Shown piece by piece: positions 3,590 to 64,000 of a stretch of 64,000 nucleotides of DNA. The translations under genes were made by a program, and so were the position numbers. The stretch spans positions 42,636,440 to 42,700,439 of the forward strand of contig NC_088643.1 of assembly GCF_964019385.1 (NCBI RefSeq), given 5' to 3'. Positions within the stretch are counted from its first letter, which is position 1; each line of letters begins with the position of its first letter. This stretch comes from Sycon ciliatum (lineage: Eukaryota > Porifera > Calcarea > Leucosolenida > Sycettidae). The notes under the pieces are model-generated. The model was not told where the DNA came from. It saw nothing but the letters and a program-made list of their open reading frames with translations, and did not search any database.

Positions 3590-6500
3590 ACTCTTCACAC
3601 TGGGAAACTGTACTGAAGGACATCAGTGGAACTGTAGTTGTGAACATTGACTTGCTCAGAAATAAAGACATCAACATCCTGCAACTGAAAGCTGGCCTGC
3701 ATTATTGTGGATTCACCATTTCATACTTTAAGCTGAAAGGGGACACAGCCCCAACTTCAGCAAAGAGGAGTGGAAGACGACGGCGTCTCGGAGGTTTGTC
3801 ACCTTTCTGTTTCTTCTCACCTGTACTTTAGTGTTGAACCAAATGACTGTCATTCTAAACAGTTAAAAACTGTGTGAATGAGCAGGATTCGGGTGAGACC
3901 CAGTCGGACTCAGTTTTCCGCATCCGTGGGAACTCCACCACCATGTGAAATACCATATCATCAAACAATGAACTGAAACTTGTGAAGCTGGATGTGTGGT
4001 CCAACTGTACAATACAGGAAAACTTGGATGCTGTTAAACCGGAAATTTTCGGCGGTGTAATATTTTCGATATTTCCCAAAATAAACAGTTCGGTAGCACG
4101 AAAATTTCGGTAAACCAGTTTTCCAGATCCAAAAATGCACTTTGCACACTGTGTGGCAGGGCAATGTTGAATTTTAGGTCGCATTTTATTTTAGGTAAAA
4201 ATTGCCTGTACCGACGAAGTTACCGAAAATAAATCTCCGCAGAAAGTTTACAGTACCTGTAAAACATCCCCTTGTCCGAGTGTGAGGTACCTCGTTGTCC
4301 CTAGCCAGGCATTGCTGGTCTTTATGTGGCGGTGAGTGGCTGGGAAGAACAGCGAAAAGCGTACAAAGCAATTATACTGTAGAAGCAGAAAAAATCGGTG
4401 GTGTAATATTTTCAGTATTCTCAAAAATCGATGGTTCGGTGGAGGGACAATTTCGGTTAAAGGGGAAGTATACCCTAAAATCAAATGTTCACCAGTTGTA
4501 GTCTTCGTGGTGCTGAGTCGAATGGTCTTGGTCCGAGGACGCTGAGACGCTCCCTTCCTCCTTTATTCTCAATCGAACTGGCGCACTTCCACCGAAACTG
4601 GGTGACTGCGCCCTACTAGATAGGGATTTGTATGGAAAAAGTCACTAAAAACGCCGTTTCGTTCTTATAAAAGCACGGATGACCGCGATTGGTCCATATG
4701 TTGTAGTCTTGTGGCCGCTGAGTCGACTGGTGTTGGTCCGAAAAGGCTGCGATGCAGCGTTCGGCCCTCATTCCCAATCGAACACGGTTGAGTGAGCGGT
4801 CACGTGCCAGCAGAGTACATTTTTCACATTAAGATTCAACTCAAAGGTTCAAAGTAGGGAGTCGTAAGAGGCTTTTACGACTCCCTGGTTCAAAGGTTCA
4901 ACTCGAGTGACATAAACGGGCCCAAACAGGCTGTAAATGAGCACGTGACTGCTTACTCAACCGCTTTCGATTGGGAATAAGGGCCGAATGCTGCACCGCA
5001 GCCTTTTCGGACCAAAACCAGTCGACTCAGCGGCCAAAAGACTACAACATATGGACCAATCGCGGTCATCCGCGCTTTTATAAGAACGAAACGGCGTTTT
5101 TAGTGACTTTTTCCATACAAATCCCTATCTAGTAGGGCGCAGTCACCCAGTTTCGGTGGAAATGCGCGAGTTCGATTGGGAATAAAGGAGGAAGGGAGCG
5201 TCTCAGCTTCCTCGGACCAAGACCATTCGACTCAGCACCCCGAAGACTACAACTGGTGAACATTTGATTTTAGGGTATACTTCCCCTTTAACCCGTTTTC
5301 CAGGTAAGTGTACCGACATTTTGGGTGCGTTTTATTTTCGGTAAATATTTCGGCACCGAAGTTATCGAAAATAGAGCACCACCGAAAATGTCTGCTTTCA
5401 CAGCAATATGATTTTGGCGCTAGATGAAGCAAAGAAAAAACTCGGTATGCCAGCACTAGCTTGTCATGTTTAAAATTAAATACCACCTAAGATCACACCC
5501 AGCTATCACTTTGCCTCTCCCTCCGAGTCTACACGGTTGTTGCATTCTGCTGACTCAAAGGCAGTATGCCTGTGGAAGTACTTTCTCAATCATGTAATTA
5601 TTTTTCCGTCTTCTTCCTCCGGAAACAAAAAACTTTGTGACTCCGATCGACCTGCTTATTCTGATGAATTGAGTTTTGATTGGAATGGAGCGACGGTGAC
5701 TCCGAGTGAGACTCAAACTCTTCAAATTTCTTTTGTATAATAGTGTACTTCAAAGCAGTATATCCACACATGGTTTTGAACTTTTTGATTCATGCCACGA
5801 ATTTTCTTGAGCACCGGCAGTATCTCGTTAGAATTTAAATAAAAAGTCACAAGGTTTTCCTTTCCAGGGCTTGGGGACGTTCTTCTGACACCATGTTTAT
5901 TTTACTCGTCCAATTTTCGTAATATGGGTATTGTAAGAAAGTGTTCGCTCCCCACATATTCCGCCGACTTGCAGGGCCGGAGGCTGCTTGCGCGGAGCAG
6001 TGCAGCCGAAGGGCCATCTTTAAGGGGGTCTGGGGGTCGTCCCCCATAAAAAGTTTGGAATTTAGACGGCAAATCCTGCACTCTGGGCGACTCCCTGTAC
6101 AAAATCATACATCGAAACTTTTCTCCCCGGTTTTGGACGTTCCACGTGGACCGACTTCTTTTTATTTCTATTTTTTGGTACGGCCATGGCCGTACCGGCC
6201 GTACCAGTGGCGCCGGCCCTGACTTGACTTGACACTTGACTGACTCACGACTGCCATCCAGAGCAGACGAGAAGTCCATTGAACTGTCCACTCGGCAAAC
6301 CTGCAAGAAAGCACCACTCCCTGCTCAATACACAGTGTTTCGGGGAATTCACCCCTCATCAGTTGAGCTTGAGTAGGCTGAGGAAGATTGTGCCTGAAGA
6401 GCACCATGTATATAGTGCTCTCCAGGCACAAACATCACCAGGGATACAAAATTACAGAGACGCTCCGTTTTCAGCGCGACCAACACCTCGTGAACACCAG

Positions 6501-26112: not shown

Positions 26113-49641
<23,529 letters not shown>

Positions 49642-56010: not shown

Positions 56011-56118
56011 AAAATAAACTAATAAAAAACGATTTTCATGAGACTCCATTTTGGATCAATCTTTTTGCAGGCTCATCGTGCGTTTTCGTTCTTTCTGTCT
56101 TTGGGCAACTTTGGCAAG

Positions 56119-57651
56119 ATGGCAGATTCAGCTTCCTCTTCTCGTTTCGTTCCAGTTTCTGACGAAGAGAAGGCTCGTCTTCTAGACGAAGCAGTACCTC
56201 AGAAAACAAAGCAGGCAACGAAGTTTTGGATGTCTGTGTTCAAAGACTTTTGTTCGGACAATGAAGATGCCCGAAAACTTCTACAGGAAAAGGACGCTGA
56301 CTGGATGAGCATCGAAGAGGAAACATTAGCCTCTTTATTGGAGTCCTTTTACTGCTGTGCCAGGAAAAAGGATAAAACTGAGTACAAGCGTGCTTCTATG
56401 ATTGCAGCCAGAGGTGCTATCCAGCGCCAACTCAATATCTTCAACAGAGGAATTGACTTGAAAAGTCTAAAGTTCGACCGCGCCAACAAACTGCTCGATG
56501 CTGTTCTCAAGGACAAAAAGAAGAATGGTCGAGAGGCCCCGGTCACGCACAAGGAGACGATTTGCGATGCAGACGGGGAGAAACTGTCCGGGTATTTCGC
56601 AGACGTGAGCACTACTCTTGACGTAAAGAAGCTCACTCAGTACGTGTGGTTCAACTGCACGATCCATTTCTGTCTTCGTGGAAACGAGGCACAATCCCAG
56701 CTCAAGCCATCCGACCTCGTATTCACGACAATCGCTGGTGAGGAAGCCATTGTTCTGCACGCTGATTATATGTCAAAGAACCATCAGGGTGGTCTGACAG
56801 GGAGCCATACCGAGACCAGCGGAGCAATCACAAGATCTGATATGATCGCTGTTTTCCGAAGGTACCTGTCAAAGCTCCATCCAGAAATGGATCGTCTATT
56901 CCAGCGGGCAAAGTACGGAAGTGGAGTGCTCGCCATGGACTGTGATGTTTGGTTTATGAAGTCGGCACTTGGACACAACACATTGGGTAAGTAGCTGTAT
57001 TTTCTCCCATTTTGAACGGCGTTTTGTATAACTCTTGTTCCAAGCTTCTGTGATTGGTGTCAGTGTTCCCTCTCAGGTGTTCTATACTTGTACCTAATTT
57101 TTATTGAGATTCTGGAGGTTGTGATGAATGACTCATTTCACTCATTAAGATATCTGTTTCTGTATATTTTGTGATACTGCTATGCAGGAAAGATGATGAA
57201 GGAGATTTCTTCAGCCGCTGGCCTTGGCCAGACGTACACTAACCACTGCGTCCGTGTTACTTCTATATCCCACATGAAGGCCTCCGGAGCTGAGGATCGC
57301 AAGATCTGCACCGTAAGTGGTCATCGCAATGTGCAGTCACTTCAGGCATATGACCGACCGACGGCATCGGATGTCATGGCTTTGTCAAAAGCAATTGACA
57401 AGGAAAATGTTAGTCCGCAGACATCACCAGCACCTGTATCTGCTTCACCCGTGTCTGCACCGCCTGCTGCTGTCGCTGCTGCTGCATCATCTAGTCCTTC
57501 ACCACTGGGCTCTCTGTTCTCTGCTCAAGGCTCAACTTGGTCGAATGTTACTATCAACGTAACTCCACAGCTGCCTGAGAAACGTAAGAATCGCCCGAGT
57601 TTGAAATTGAAGAAGAAGCCAAAGAAGGAGCATGATGATGATGATAAGTGA
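56119..57651 (+). CDS. Tyrosine recombinase, Crypton/DUF3504-like, intact
   Basis: Exons 56119-56986 and 57188-57651, one phase-1 intron, 443 residues. All catalytic positions of the YR fold are visible: Arg187 (FCLRGNEAQ), Lys220 (YMSKNHQGG), His309-x-x-Arg312 (NHCVR), His335 (SGHRNVQ) and nucleophile Tyr344 (LQAYDRP). The N-terminal half (KQATKFWMSVFKDFC) fits the core-binding helices of Crypton and QRICH1/ZMYM-type proteins. The C-terminus is Ala/Ser/Pro-rich, then a Lys-rich tail (LKLKKKPKKEHDDDD), likely nuclear. The start at 56119 has an AAGATGG context; an upstream ATG at 56038 is in frame. It may be an active transposon or a young gene. Confidence 0.87.
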
Positions 57652-59641: not shown

Positions 59642-60613
59642 AAAAAAAAATTAATAATAATAGACTCGGATGGAGAGCCAAGGATTATTTTATAGAAGAA
59701 CAAAAAGGACCAAGGTTGTTGGAGCGCGCATCCAAGATGTGCTAGAGCTGTTAGCCAGTTAGTTGTAGAATGTCAGTACCGTCGGTCAGTATCGTGCAAT
59801 GTTATCGCATGAGCTGATTGTTTAGTAACTGGTGGTGTTAGTGGACATCATAGCGTAACTTGTACTTCCTTGGTCATTTTTGTTCTTCTATAAATTAATA
59901 ATAATGCAAGCCATGGCCAAAGGATTTCCTGCCGGCCTAGCTGTATATCAAACCGGCTTGTCACTGAATGCAATATGATAATAACTCCGTAGAGCAGATG
60001 ATCTGTTGTATACAATGTCAAATTTGCAATAGGTATTAGTAGATGAGCTGTTGGAGTCTTGTCCAGGAGATTATCAGCAATGTTTAACAAAATAAATTTT
60101 AATTCGACTCTACCTAGACTAACGGTGTACATGTCTGGAGACACGAAGCCAATGAGTTCTAAGTAGCTTGGAGAGCTAGCATGTAGTGACACAGCTAAAC
60201 CTAGCAGGATGCAGTAAAACCTGAGCTAATATTAAGCGACCTCTGGTATTAGTGAACAGCGCTTTTCAATGCAGTGGCGGTTCTGCATGCAAACTGCGCC
60301 AGAAACAGCGACCATCTGGCACCCGTGTTTCGCGACCAGCGACCCACGTCTAGTACCAAGTGCCATATCTGACATACAACGACCGCAAGTGCTTCTCAGG
60401 CTTCGCTGCAACAGGGTTTAAGTCAAAAGCGAGTGCATACACTGGTTCAGTCAACTGAAGTGACTAGTGACAGTGCAGGGTGCAATGCACTTGGTGTGAA
60501 AGGTTTTGAAAACTCATGGGTGCTTCATCTTCATGAATAGTGTTCTATGCCCAATACCTGTCAATATATGTAGTTGCATAGAAGGAATTTCTTTTTAGAG
60601 ATTAGCCTACTAC
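59642..60613. other. Repeat-derived, no gene
   Basis: 59665-59900 is an inverted relative of 61320-61480 (ACTCGGATGGAGAGCCAAGG). 60200-60300 resembles a decayed Tigger end (AGTAAAACCTGAGCTAATAT). Confidence 0.5.
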
Positions 60614-60728
60614 TGTAGGGCGTTTCAAAAGTATAGACCTCTAGACTCATTTTCGATTAATTCAATTTTGGTTTGTGCTTTTTGAATAATTTCTTCGGGA
60701 TGTTGCTCAGGCAGTTCCCCCAAATTTC

Positions 60729-60743
60729 TGATATTATAAATTA
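60729..60743. repeat. Target-site duplication, left
   Basis: TGATATTATAAATTA, identical to 61107-61121. Confidence 0.95.
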
Positions 60744-60749
60744 CTCAAT

Positions 60750-60793
60750 CTGCGGACAGAACTGTTTCGTCCTTTGTGGACTCGTCAGCGCAG
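60750..60793 (-). ncRNA. Hammerhead ribozyme 1 of the retrozyme
   Basis: Minus strand: stem I CUGCG (60793-60789), CUGACGA (60788-60782), stem II GUCC-ACAAA-GGAC, GAAA, stem III ACA-GUUC-UGU, canonical cleavage triplet GUC (H17 at 60755), stem I CGCAG (60754-60750). All core bases are conserved. Confidence 0.95.
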
Positions 60794-60975
60794 CACAGAG
60801 AAAATGAGGCCGAACCTGATAGCAATGGAAATAAAAATTTCCAATCAGGCCCGAACGTACCTTGCCAGAGTGCTCAAACTGACAAGTCAGTGAGCTCTGC
60901 ATAACGCAAACAGCAAAGGCACTACCCCACGCAAGAGTGCTCAACTGCTACAAGAGCAGGAGCGAAATACTCAAT

Positions 60976-61019
60976 CTGCGGACAGAACTGTTTCGTCCTT
61001 TGTGGACTCGTCAGCGCAG
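60976..61019 (-). ncRNA. Hammerhead ribozyme 2 of the retrozyme
   Basis: Identical to the first, with the core CUGACGA at 61014-61008 and GUC cleavage at 60981. Cleavage at both sites would release a 226-nucleotide monomer. Confidence 0.95.
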
Positions 61020-61106
61020 CACAGAGGAAATGAGGCCGAACCTGATAGCAATGGAAATAAAAATTTCCAATCAGGCCCGAACGTACCTTGCCAGAGTGCT
61101 CAAATA

Positions 61107-61121
61107 TGATATTATAAATTA
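61107..61121. repeat. Target-site duplication, right
   Basis: TGATATTATAAATTA, identical to 60729-60743. Confidence 0.95.
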
Positions 61122-61864
61122 TATATTTCTAGGTAATTGCATAAAAAACGCCCAATTTCGCAGATATTATGCAAAGTGATCACAGATTTTATGTGGTATA
61201 GGTGCTGGCCTGACGGGCTTTTGAAACCAGATGTCTATATTTTTGAAACTCATTATAGTAGAGTCGACGTCAAGGGCAAACCCTAGATTCAATGCATGAA
61301 AGGTTGAATACATAATTATTATGGACTCGGATGGAGAGCCAAGGTTTAATTTATACAAAAGAGAAAGAACCAAGGAACTACAAGTTACGCTATACTGTCC
61401 ACTACCACCACCAGTTACTAAAAAATCAGCTCATGCGATAACATTGCACGACACTGACCGACGGTACTGACGTTCTACAACTAGCTGGCACTCCAACAGC
61501 CTTCCGACTTGGAAGGTTCTAACTTCTAAGTTATAGAAATAACATAAGGAGGGGAAGGTGAGCGCAACCAAGATAAGCACGAGCTGAAAGTCTCAGCTGT
61601 GAAGGACGTTGGCGGATGTTCATGCATGTCGGTGACGATACTGGCAAGATCATTGGACAATACGGTCAAACAACGATTCAAGAACGCAAAGCAACATTCC
61701 ACACAACTTGTGTGGCTCAAAAGATGCGAAGATCAATAAAAGGGGAAGCTATGCAAACAAGAATCATGAAAAAACCGAACGCCTCAGTAAAACAGCACTG
61801 TACTTCGACTATGACAATTTACATGGACAATAAGCAGCGGTAACAAGCAGCAATAATTATTATA

Positions 61865-61995: not shown

Positions 61996-62850
61996 AAAAT
62001 CTAAAATAACTACAAAGAGTGGGTGTCACATACACATAGAACGGAGTGGGGTTCACACGTGCACCTTTCTCAAACCGGACAGCACAGGGTTCCAAGAAAA
62101 TAGCTGGTATCACCTGGAATTTGTTCAAGTACAGTAAACCTGTAATGGCGACCACTTTTCCTTGTCACGGACGCATTCACATTCAAAACAGCTCGGATAA
62201 GGCGACCACCCACCTGCGACCATGTTGCACCCTACTACTATAAAATAAATAAATAAATTCGACGGGGTTCGCGTACCGGGCAGGTCAAGAACAAGGAGTC
62301 ATACAACTCCCTGGTCAAGAACCACCTTTCCGCTTCCGTGGGACGCCACCACCCCATGATCAGGCGTCAGATGCGGCTCCTAAACGGTGGGGGAGGATAA
62401 ATGGAAGCGGAAGGATTTTTTCCAACCGTGCTGCGACCCACAGTTAATTGGGAACTCGTGGCCTGGCATGAGTAATACATGGATGTGGCAAATGGGATCG
62501 AGGCCTTTGGCCTCTGGTTGGTGGACCCTACTACTATAGTGTGTTTCAAAAGTATAGACCGCTAGACCATTTTGAATAAATCAAATTTGTTTTGAGCTTT
62601 TCGAGAAATTTCTTCGGAATATTGCTCAGGCAGCTCACGCAATTTTTCTCATGTAAATTTCTAAGGGATTGGATAACAGACGCCCAATTTTGAAACTTTT
62701 ATGCACAACGTGATCACAAATTTCAAGTGGTATAGATTATTATTATTATTATTATTATTAGGTAAACAGTTTCCTCTGAGACAAAAATGCGATAATACTC
62801 ATAAAAAGGACACACTTCAGGCTCATTACAAACATCTTGAAAGTTTTTGT

Positions 62851-62889
62851 CTTCACAAGTATACTTTCAAGCCTTCTCATCAGGTGAAA
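62851..62889 (-). ncRNA. Hammerhead-like fold, PLE-1, inverted copy
   Basis: Minus strand copy of 63804-63842 with no difference. Confidence 0.6.
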
Positions 62890-63213
62890 TACAGGCAAGG
62901 GAACAGGAACAGTGGATTAAATACAGTAAGAAGGTGGTAAAACAGCGCAAAAAGAAAGAAAGAAAGAAGATAGCTAAAGTAAACAGCGAAAAATGTAGGT
63001 AGGACTCTTCAACATCTGGACGCACGCATCCGACAACACGCACCGCTACACCTTATTCCACAACACGCACGATCCACTCGACCACGGAGGGGACGTCCAG
63101 CAAAGAATCATCCTGGTACAAGATGGTCCAACGCAGCGGCATCAACACCAAGCAACGTCACCTCACAATTAACTAGACCACCAGAAAAACAACCGGACAA
63201 GACACCTACGTGC

Positions 63214-63600
63214 GTGGCAGTGACAGGAACCGCATCAACCAGAAGAATGACAAGATCGGCAACGGTGGCGATGGCAGCGACTAAAGCACAGGCAGAGACA
63301 ACGGCTAGGGTCCACTCGACTAGCCATGTGAAATCGGATGTGTCCACCGCACATGCTGATTGTTCTGATGTTAGTTCTGATAAGTATGAGTCGTCCATTG
63401 CTAGTCATTTGTTTGAGCATCCTGATTGTCGTGCTGTGTATTCGGATGATTGTTTTTCGATTGTGTCACGTGTACGCAGTGCTAGATTGCTGAATGTTTT
63501 GGAAGCTGTATACATCCACACAAGGAAACCCAACCTTTGCAAGCAGAAACAAATCAAATTCACACTTAGGCTGTTAGGTAGGTCGTCAAAACCTCGTTAG
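63214..63600 (+). pseudogene. PLE-1 C-terminal endonuclease remnant
   Basis: 128 residues ending HLFEHPDCRAVYSDDCFSIV, then LNVLEAVYIHTRKPNLCKQK and a short hydrophobic tail. It aligns with PLE-2 over the last 60 residues and with the EA-x-x-I...P-x-L end of Penelope-like proteins. The RT and the GIY-YIG core itself lie outside this copy (lost), so the encoded peptide cannot act alone. The upstream part is Thr/Ala/Arg-rich linker. Confidence 0.65.
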
Positions 63601-63803
63601 TTACATGTATGTCCAGTGGTTGTCTCTTGTTGTCGCACTACATGTCGCGCTTATTGAGTTTTCTCGCATTTGCACCTTTGTGTCATTATTGCAATTTTCG
63701 CTGTTTACTTTAGCTATCTTCTTTCTTTCTTTCTTTTTGCGCTGTTTTACCACCTTCTTACTGTATTTAATCCACTGTTCCTGTTCCTTTTCCCTTGCCT
63801 GTA

Positions 63804-63842
63804 TTTCACCTGATGAGAAGGCTTGAAAGTATACTTGTGAAG
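63804..63842 (+). ncRNA. Hammerhead-like fold, PLE-1, sense copy
   Basis: Stem I UUUCAC (63804-63809) with GUGAAG (63837-63842); CUGAUGA 63810-63816; stem II GA-AGGC-UU (short, one G-U pair); GAAA 63825-63828; stem III AGU-AU-ACU; triplet CUU with H17 at 63836. All invariant core bases are present, but stem II is minimal. Short-stem hammerheads are reported from Penelope-like pseudo-LTRs, where dimers may be the active form. Confidence 0.62.
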
Positions 63843-64000
63843 ACAAAAACTTTCAAGATGTTTGTAATGAGCCTGAAGTGTGTCCTTTTTATGAGTATTA
63901 TTATTATTATTATGAAATGACCCAAAGGCAATATGCCTATCAAGATGCTGGCCTAACGGTTTTTTGAAACCGGATGTCTGGACTTTTGAAACGCACTATA

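Follow-up and report, generated by a model that had tools for sequence, protein, structure and literature searches.

Retrozymes in the genome of the calcareous sponge Sycon ciliatum are inserted with a nearly fixed 3′ end and spread 5′ ends. This pattern suggests that they integrate through target-primed reverse transcription started internally on a circle made by the ribozyme: copying would begin close to the foot of helix I, with UA of the RNA opposite an A|TA nick in the target, and would roll around the template until the reverse transcriptase falls off. In one array, alternating cleavage triplets suggest in addition that a weakened triplet, GCC, doubled the circle to 452 nt and that the doubled circle was copied nearly three times. 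Taken with all of its parts, this account has about an even chance of being correct. The element is described from one insert in a stretch of 64,000 nt from contig NC_088643.1 (the window) and from a search of the genome (538 Mb, 313 contigs), in which family copies were counted by pattern matching.

Structure of the Insert

A preliminary description of the window had interpreted an insert near its end as a retrozyme. This reading is supported by the type I hammerheads, the 226-nt tandem units without long open reading frames (ORFs), the long target-site duplications (TSDs), and the thousands of matches in the genome. The insert consists of a truncated 5′ unit, a complete unit, and 11 nt beyond the second cleavage site (Table 1). 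It had been called a complete retrozyme in a tandem insert; the array amounts to 1.6 units (363 nt) rather than two full units. The 15-bp target duplication described earlier, TGATATTATAAATTA, agrees at 15 of 15 positions between its two copies and receives a score of 15.0 under the scoring applied to all inserts. The 5′ TSD is separated from the unit by two nucleotides, TA (61105-61106), that derive from neither of them. The direct repeat within the insert spans 140 nt at 99% identity, with two mismatches, one within the element and one close to the border; the units had been described earlier as differing by about one base. Given the perfect TSD and the one base difference in approximately 138, the insert is probably a young copy. 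Among ORFs of 40 aa or more, four overlap the insert, and the longest of these (80 aa) extends beyond it; judged from these lengths, the retrozyme probably encodes no protein, as had been claimed.

Table 1. Features of the retrozyme insert and its host element, in window coordinates.
Feature	Position	Strand	Remarks
MITE-like inverted-repeat element, interrupted by the retrozyme	60610-61261		arms 60610-60649 and 61222-61261
TSD copy adjoining the 3′ end of the element	60729-60743		15/15 identical to its partner
Whole retrozyme insert	60744-61106	minus	363 nt, 1.6 units; borders from TSDs and comparison with the inner unit
3′-terminal 11 nt beyond the cleavage site, CGCAGATTGAG	60744-60754	minus	3′ strand of helix I
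Downstream type I hammerhead	60749-60794	minus	RF00163, 30.1 bits; cleavage predicted between 60755 and 60754
Full 226-nt unit, cleavage site to cleavage site	60755-60980	minus	predicted monomer RNA circle; spacing 226
Upstream type I hammerhead	60975-61020	minus	RF00163, 30.1 bits; cleavage predicted between 60981 and 60980
First unit, 5′-truncated, with the upstream hammerhead	60981-61106	minus	alignment begins at unit position 103
TSD copy adjoining the 5′ end of the element	61107-61121		15/15 identical to its partner
Other copy of the host MITE, lacking the retrozyme (paralogous empty site)	62527-62735	plus	alignment over the joined flanks

The placement of the insert inside a MITE is likewise upheld. 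The host element is old; its 40-nt arms are just 78% complementary, and its second copy, which lacks the insert, supports the placement, forming a single alignment with the joined flanks (220 columns, 77%) with an 8-nt gap near the insertion site and TSD. Within the second MITE copy, amid ATT repeats, lies a 3′ fragment of a Penelope-like element with inverted end repeats (62736-63942), and at another locus (L078) the same MITE is split almost where this fragment splits it. By eye, the ORF at 62983-63600 within the fragment looks like the terminal part of a GIY-YIG protein; it has no match in Pfam.

Hammerhead Ribozymes

The two hammerheads, both on the minus strand, are spaced by exactly 226 nt, as first described, and all of their expected core letters are found: CUGACGA, the four-pair stem II GUCC/GGAC, GAAAC, and GUC. 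Each is aligned over positions 1-45 of the Rfam model Hammerhead_1 (RF00163) with an E value of 2.6e-05 in a search of 801 bases. High-scoring Rfam hits had been predicted; both hammerheads are detected on the minus strand, and at 30.1 bits each they fall below the gathering score of 34, and for this reason a default Rfam scan of the window omits both. Among copies elsewhere in the genome, four of the 21 reported exceed the gathering score, the best reaching 34.9 (74 of 76,236 candidates were scored), and none of the 14 control genomes is positive in the same scan.

The circular fold of the 226-nt unit has an energy of -74.0 kcal/mol, compared to -62.1 ± 4.2 in 200 shuffles (z -2.8). The active hammerhead pairing is not seen in free folds, whether of the hammerhead alone in linear form or of the circle. 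Two more hammerhead-like core motifs with a stem II of 4-5 pairs occur in the window outside any retrozyme, at 6362 on the minus strand and at 39198 on the plus strand, and a hammerhead pattern also matched seven stretches of viral contigs.

Copies Across the Genome

As anticipated in the preliminary description, the element has other copies. A 21-mer from its 3′ end matches 5,484 places in the genome at no more than two mismatches, compared to none for the reversed control, and the retrozyme thus constitutes a dispersed multicopy family. Unit length is 226-228 nt in 21 of the 25 distinct units cut from loci, and a longer variant has a spacing of 238-239. The hammerhead occurs in two subtypes, set apart by a single compensatory base-pair change in stem II (GUCC/GGAC versus GUUC/GAAC) and by a longer stem III, with constant cleavage letters. 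Units differ on average by 1.5 bases within arrays (22 pairs from eight arrays, 16 of the pairs coming from two arrays) versus 6.6 bases between arrays (136 pairs).

Both subtypes occur at one locus (L028, 1900-2070), where a TA repeat contains two retrozymes in head-to-head orientation with an identical 3′ border. Two insertions were each found at two places: one with the same flank at C1:1368380 and C1:1645130 (L022 and L023), and one with the same TSD at C1:15580328 and C1:15723578 (L052 and L053). These pairs are either duplicated segments or assembly artefacts.

Target-Site Duplications and Insert Lengths

Insert ends were collected from 71 loci (L001-L071) and the window, and loci showing one place were merged, which gave 62 ends. 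This set required GCAGATTGA, so that its 3′ borders lie at +9 or beyond by construction, and it includes inner junctions (the first row of L002, L021, L036, and L059). TSDs with a score of at least 9.8 are found at 27 of the 62 ends versus 7 of 243 mis-paired controls, and those with a score of at least 13 at 18 of 62 versus 3 of 243. At the control rate, about two of the 27 may be due to chance, and several sit in simple repeats (L028, L048, and L070); 35 of the 62 ends have no TSD at the score of 9.8. As L052 and L053 share one TSD, there are 26 inserts with distinct TSDs. The length of these TSDs has a median of 14 bp and a range of 10-25, the longest ones being in simple repeats.

The 26 TSD-supported inserts measure 32-1256 nt with a mean of 290, and their lengths are fitted by an exponential distribution whose scale was estimated from the same data (KS p 0.83). 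Genome-wide segment counts provide a rough check, as the segments are unequal in length (21 versus 24) and in divergence: the 3′ end is matched 5,484 times, unit position 156 is matched 4,596 times, and position 27 is matched 2,406 times, which corresponds to ratios of 0.84 and 0.44 versus 0.81 and 0.50 predicted from the fitted lengths. Extrapolation from such counts gives an estimate of about 3,000 inserts in the genome. The 5′ end of a cleaved RNA was also considered as the usual stop of copying and was rejected. None of the 26 inserts has a 5′ end within 5 nt of cleavage-site run-off (1.3 expected if uniform), and two have one within 8 nt (2.0 expected); the calculation assumes a 226-nt unit for every insert, and the 0 of 26, which does not differ significantly from a uniform spread, argues solely against run-off as the usual stop.

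Could unequal exchange, without retrotransposition, have expanded a tandem satellite in which the hammerheads are passengers? Tandem arrays do exist, and an alternating array discussed below (L024) was possibly expanded later. Such an origin is nonetheless very improbable in view of the thousands of dispersed matches, the paralogous empty site in the window, the many inserts shorter than one unit, the nearly fixed 3′ end, and TSDs that exceed the controls and also flank inserts of 32-111 nt. Satellite growth alone was rejected on the dispersed copies, sub-unit inserts, TSDs, and 3′ border.

The 3′ Border and the Target Site

The most useful claim of the preliminary description was that the 3′ border of the insert, 11 nt beyond the cleavage site, constrains the integration mechanism. 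The position of this border was assessed in arrays recognized by their 5′ part, since a search with the 3′ end required GCAGATTGA and the matches to the 3′-end 21-mer, as listed, are the exact ones ending in GAGTA. These arrays gave 23 rows, 17 of which were informative after the removal of rows in which the array continues into a neighboring insert or the unit is lost (L014, L018, the first of L019, and L028), of L022, which is a single-unit insert at a locus retrieved through its 3′ end, and of L023, which duplicates L022. In 16 of the 17 informative arrays, the 3′ border lies at +10 to +16, chance matches with the flank included. The lone exception is an older retrozyme (L021, 1520-1560) with its 3′ border exactly on the hammerhead cleavage site. 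Judging from the pairing of the letters, the outer part of helix I, CUC/GAG, would extend as far as +11. In the window, the terminal 11 nt, CGCAGATTGAG, would represent the start of reverse transcription, and other inserts have the same border.

The target site was examined in ends that had not been selected by their flank, comprising 31 ends minus three inner junctions (the first row of L002, L021, and L036). T is found at +12 in 22 of these 28 ends, and A is found at +13 in 25. In all 13 TSD inserts with a +11 border, A precedes the nick, with G excluded from this position by the construction of the scoring; the site is ambiguous in six TSD inserts with a +10 border. The A before the nick and the T and A at +12 and +13 together indicate that the nick reads A|TA. 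Since the element has UA at the corresponding place, the primer can pair with it.

Proposed Mechanism of Integration

The following pathway is proposed for the retrozyme. First, transcripts of tandem units would cut themselves at every hammerhead to produce 226-nt pieces, which would then be closed into circles by a host ligase. A reverse transcriptase from another element would nick AT-rich target DNA at A|TA, and the freed target end would prime synthesis at an internal point of the RNA close to the foot of helix I, assisted by base pairs between TA in the target and UA in the RNA. Once copying had begun, the reverse transcriptase would circle the template until falling off. Such a pathway leads to inserts whose 3′ end is fixed and whose 5′ end is spread, which measure anything between tens of bases and several turns, and which are flanked by TSDs of about 14 bp. 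The anatomy, borders, TSDs, target preference, copy number, and length distribution are observed, and the cleavage, the circles, and the enzyme are inferred. There is good confidence that the retrozyme is mobilized by target-primed reverse transcription with an internal start; with somewhat less assurance, the template is considered to have been a closed RNA circle.

It has to be weighed whether the same element was copied from a linear template, that is, from an uncleaved or partly cleaved multimer with an internal start near helix I and random fall-off, in which case the ribozyme would merely trim the RNA. The borders observed do not separate a linear from a circular template, as an uncleaved multimer gives nearly identical ones, and a Penelope-like element has been reported to start internally on linear RNA in vitro, with hammerhead mutants inserting normally (PMC11167929). 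However, units are near-identical within arrays, as a closed template gives directly and as homogeneous source arrays also could. In addition, the array L024 shows a two-unit pattern three times over with one base differing, which a closed template again gives directly. A linear template is judged unlikely.

An Array With Alternating Cleavage Triplets

L024 (contig 1, near 2.275 Mb) is an array of 1256 nt that contains six hammerheads and is flanked by a 14-bp TSD without mismatch. Their cleavage triplets read, in order, GCC, GTC, GCC, GTC, GCC, and GTC, with a period of 452, and the five full units are identical apart from the GCC/GTC triplet. GCC breaks the NUH rule for cleavage triplets (PMC2238771). 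If efficient cutting is confined to every second site, the transcripts yield dimers of 452 nt, and a dimer circle, once copied, produces the pattern of L024. The alternation may record such copying, a reading on which confidence is evenly divided; if it holds, the genome itself records that the hammerhead sets the size of the circle. Alternatively, the alternation could have originated through exchange after insertion.

A search of the genome for the GCC variant found 42 sites, compared to none for the reversed control. Three of these are the L024 sites, exactly 452 apart. At four other places, pairs of GCC sites lie 238-239 apart, the adjacency of the units being taken from this spacing. As GCC occurs one unit apart at these four places, it does not simply force the formation of dimers; such pairs could reflect either weak cutting at GCC, as under the NHH rule, or later duplication. 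In a second array lacking an exact site (L093), the changes are private and do not alternate, leaving L024 alone among the arrays examined.

Penelope-Like Elements and the Mobilizing Enzyme

Animal retrozymes have been suggested to depend on Penelope-like elements, which are described as strong candidates for moving them (PMC7229834). Retrozyme repeats are reported to show no conserved motif that identifies a partner, and the question of the enzyme is described as open (PMC7761336). Mobilization by the sponge's own Penelope-like elements, which would be compatible with internally started copying of a circle, is a credible possibility to which slightly less than even weight is given. Penelope-like copies are present in the genome, where they carry minimal hammerheads alongside GIY-YIG and ORFs of the reverse transcriptase type. 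Two copies have TSDs, one of 14 bp and one of 12 bp that has a single mismatch and lies in a local repeat, and the published Penelope enzyme starts internally (PMC11167929). However, five copies from two families end at +70 to +83 and +109 to +117 beyond the assumed cleavage site (after GTT), as opposed to +11 for the retrozyme. In the text of PMC11167929, a lizard element is described with a two-site tail, which the sponge Penelope-like ends resemble. No tail shared with the retrozyme was seen by eye in the same five copies, and a likeness of GAG|T at Penelope and retrozyme ends, also noted by eye, was set aside as too weak. The size of the TSD and the internal start thus fit a Penelope-type enzyme, whereas the start point does not match. 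The difference in start point from the measured Penelope-like copies points to another enzyme or to another mode.

Other coding sequences were noted in the window and on one further contig. At 33876-37127 lies the ORF of an LTR-type retroelement, in which domains of reverse transcriptase and RNase H are recognized. Two ORFs lie at 56026-57651, the second of which matches a phage-integrase model just below its curated cut-off; we take this pair to be Crypton-like. The small contig C291 (L072) has a long GIY-YIG ORF that is UvrC-like by eye and probably belongs to a bacterium living with the sponge.

Comparison With Known Systems

Animal non-LTR retrozymes are known from cnidarians, molluscs, amphibians, and others (Cervera and de la Pena 2020, PMC7229834). 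By its features, the sponge element belongs to this group. As in the elements described in the main text of PMC7229834, it has a canonical type I hammerhead and a strongly paired predicted circle. The tandem units of that report are 150-450 bp in length, compared to 226 nt here in TSD-flanked arrays of up to 1256 nt, and its TSDs exceed 4 bp, compared to 15 bp in the window insert and a median of 14 in 26 inserts. The family of the coral Acropora millepora occurs in two sizes, about 225 and 245 bp (PMC7229834), and the sponge family likewise occurs in two, of 226-228 and 238-239. The GC content of retrozymes is given there as below 50% in the text and as below 45% in a figure legend; that of the sponge element, 49.1%, lies under the first figure and over the second. 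The host differs in being a calcareous sponge, and sponge, Porifera, Sycon, and Amphimedon are absent from the main text of that paper. A literature search that covered few subscription papers returned nothing on Sycon with hammerhead ribozyme, nor on hammerhead ribozyme with sponge/Porifera/retrotransposon. TSDs of 15 bp, as in the sponge insert, are reported for hammerhead repeats of Nematostella vectensis (PMC4918200).

The useful addition to the known retrozymes is the border pattern, and border statistics of this kind were not found in the texts consulted on retrozymes and Penelope-like elements. How an endless RNA circle becomes DNA and which enzyme moves animal retrozymes are left open in PMC7761336. 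The nearly fixed 3′ end, the spread 5′ ends, and the target motif over thousands of copies lead to predictions on the start, the template, and the target, and a sponge genome in which retrozymes and Penelope-like elements occur together is well suited to testing them.

Penelope-like elements share with the sponge retrozyme a hammerhead near the element end, an internal start (in one tested enzyme), and TSDs of 12-14 bp (in two sponge copies). They differ in encoding a reverse transcriptase and GIY-YIG, whereas the sponge retrozyme has 363 nt and no ORF above 80 aa, and in having a minimal hammerhead with measured ends 70-117 nt beyond the assumed cleavage site, compared to +11 in the retrozyme. 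Plant LTR retrozymes, as presented in the text of PMC4918200, consist of the same hammerhead-flanked non-coding units and are likewise non-autonomous, with a circular RNA intermediate such as the one that the sponge element would form. However, they possess type III hammerheads, LTRs, and 4-bp TSDs, in contrast to the type I hammerheads and the 15-bp TSD of the sponge insert.
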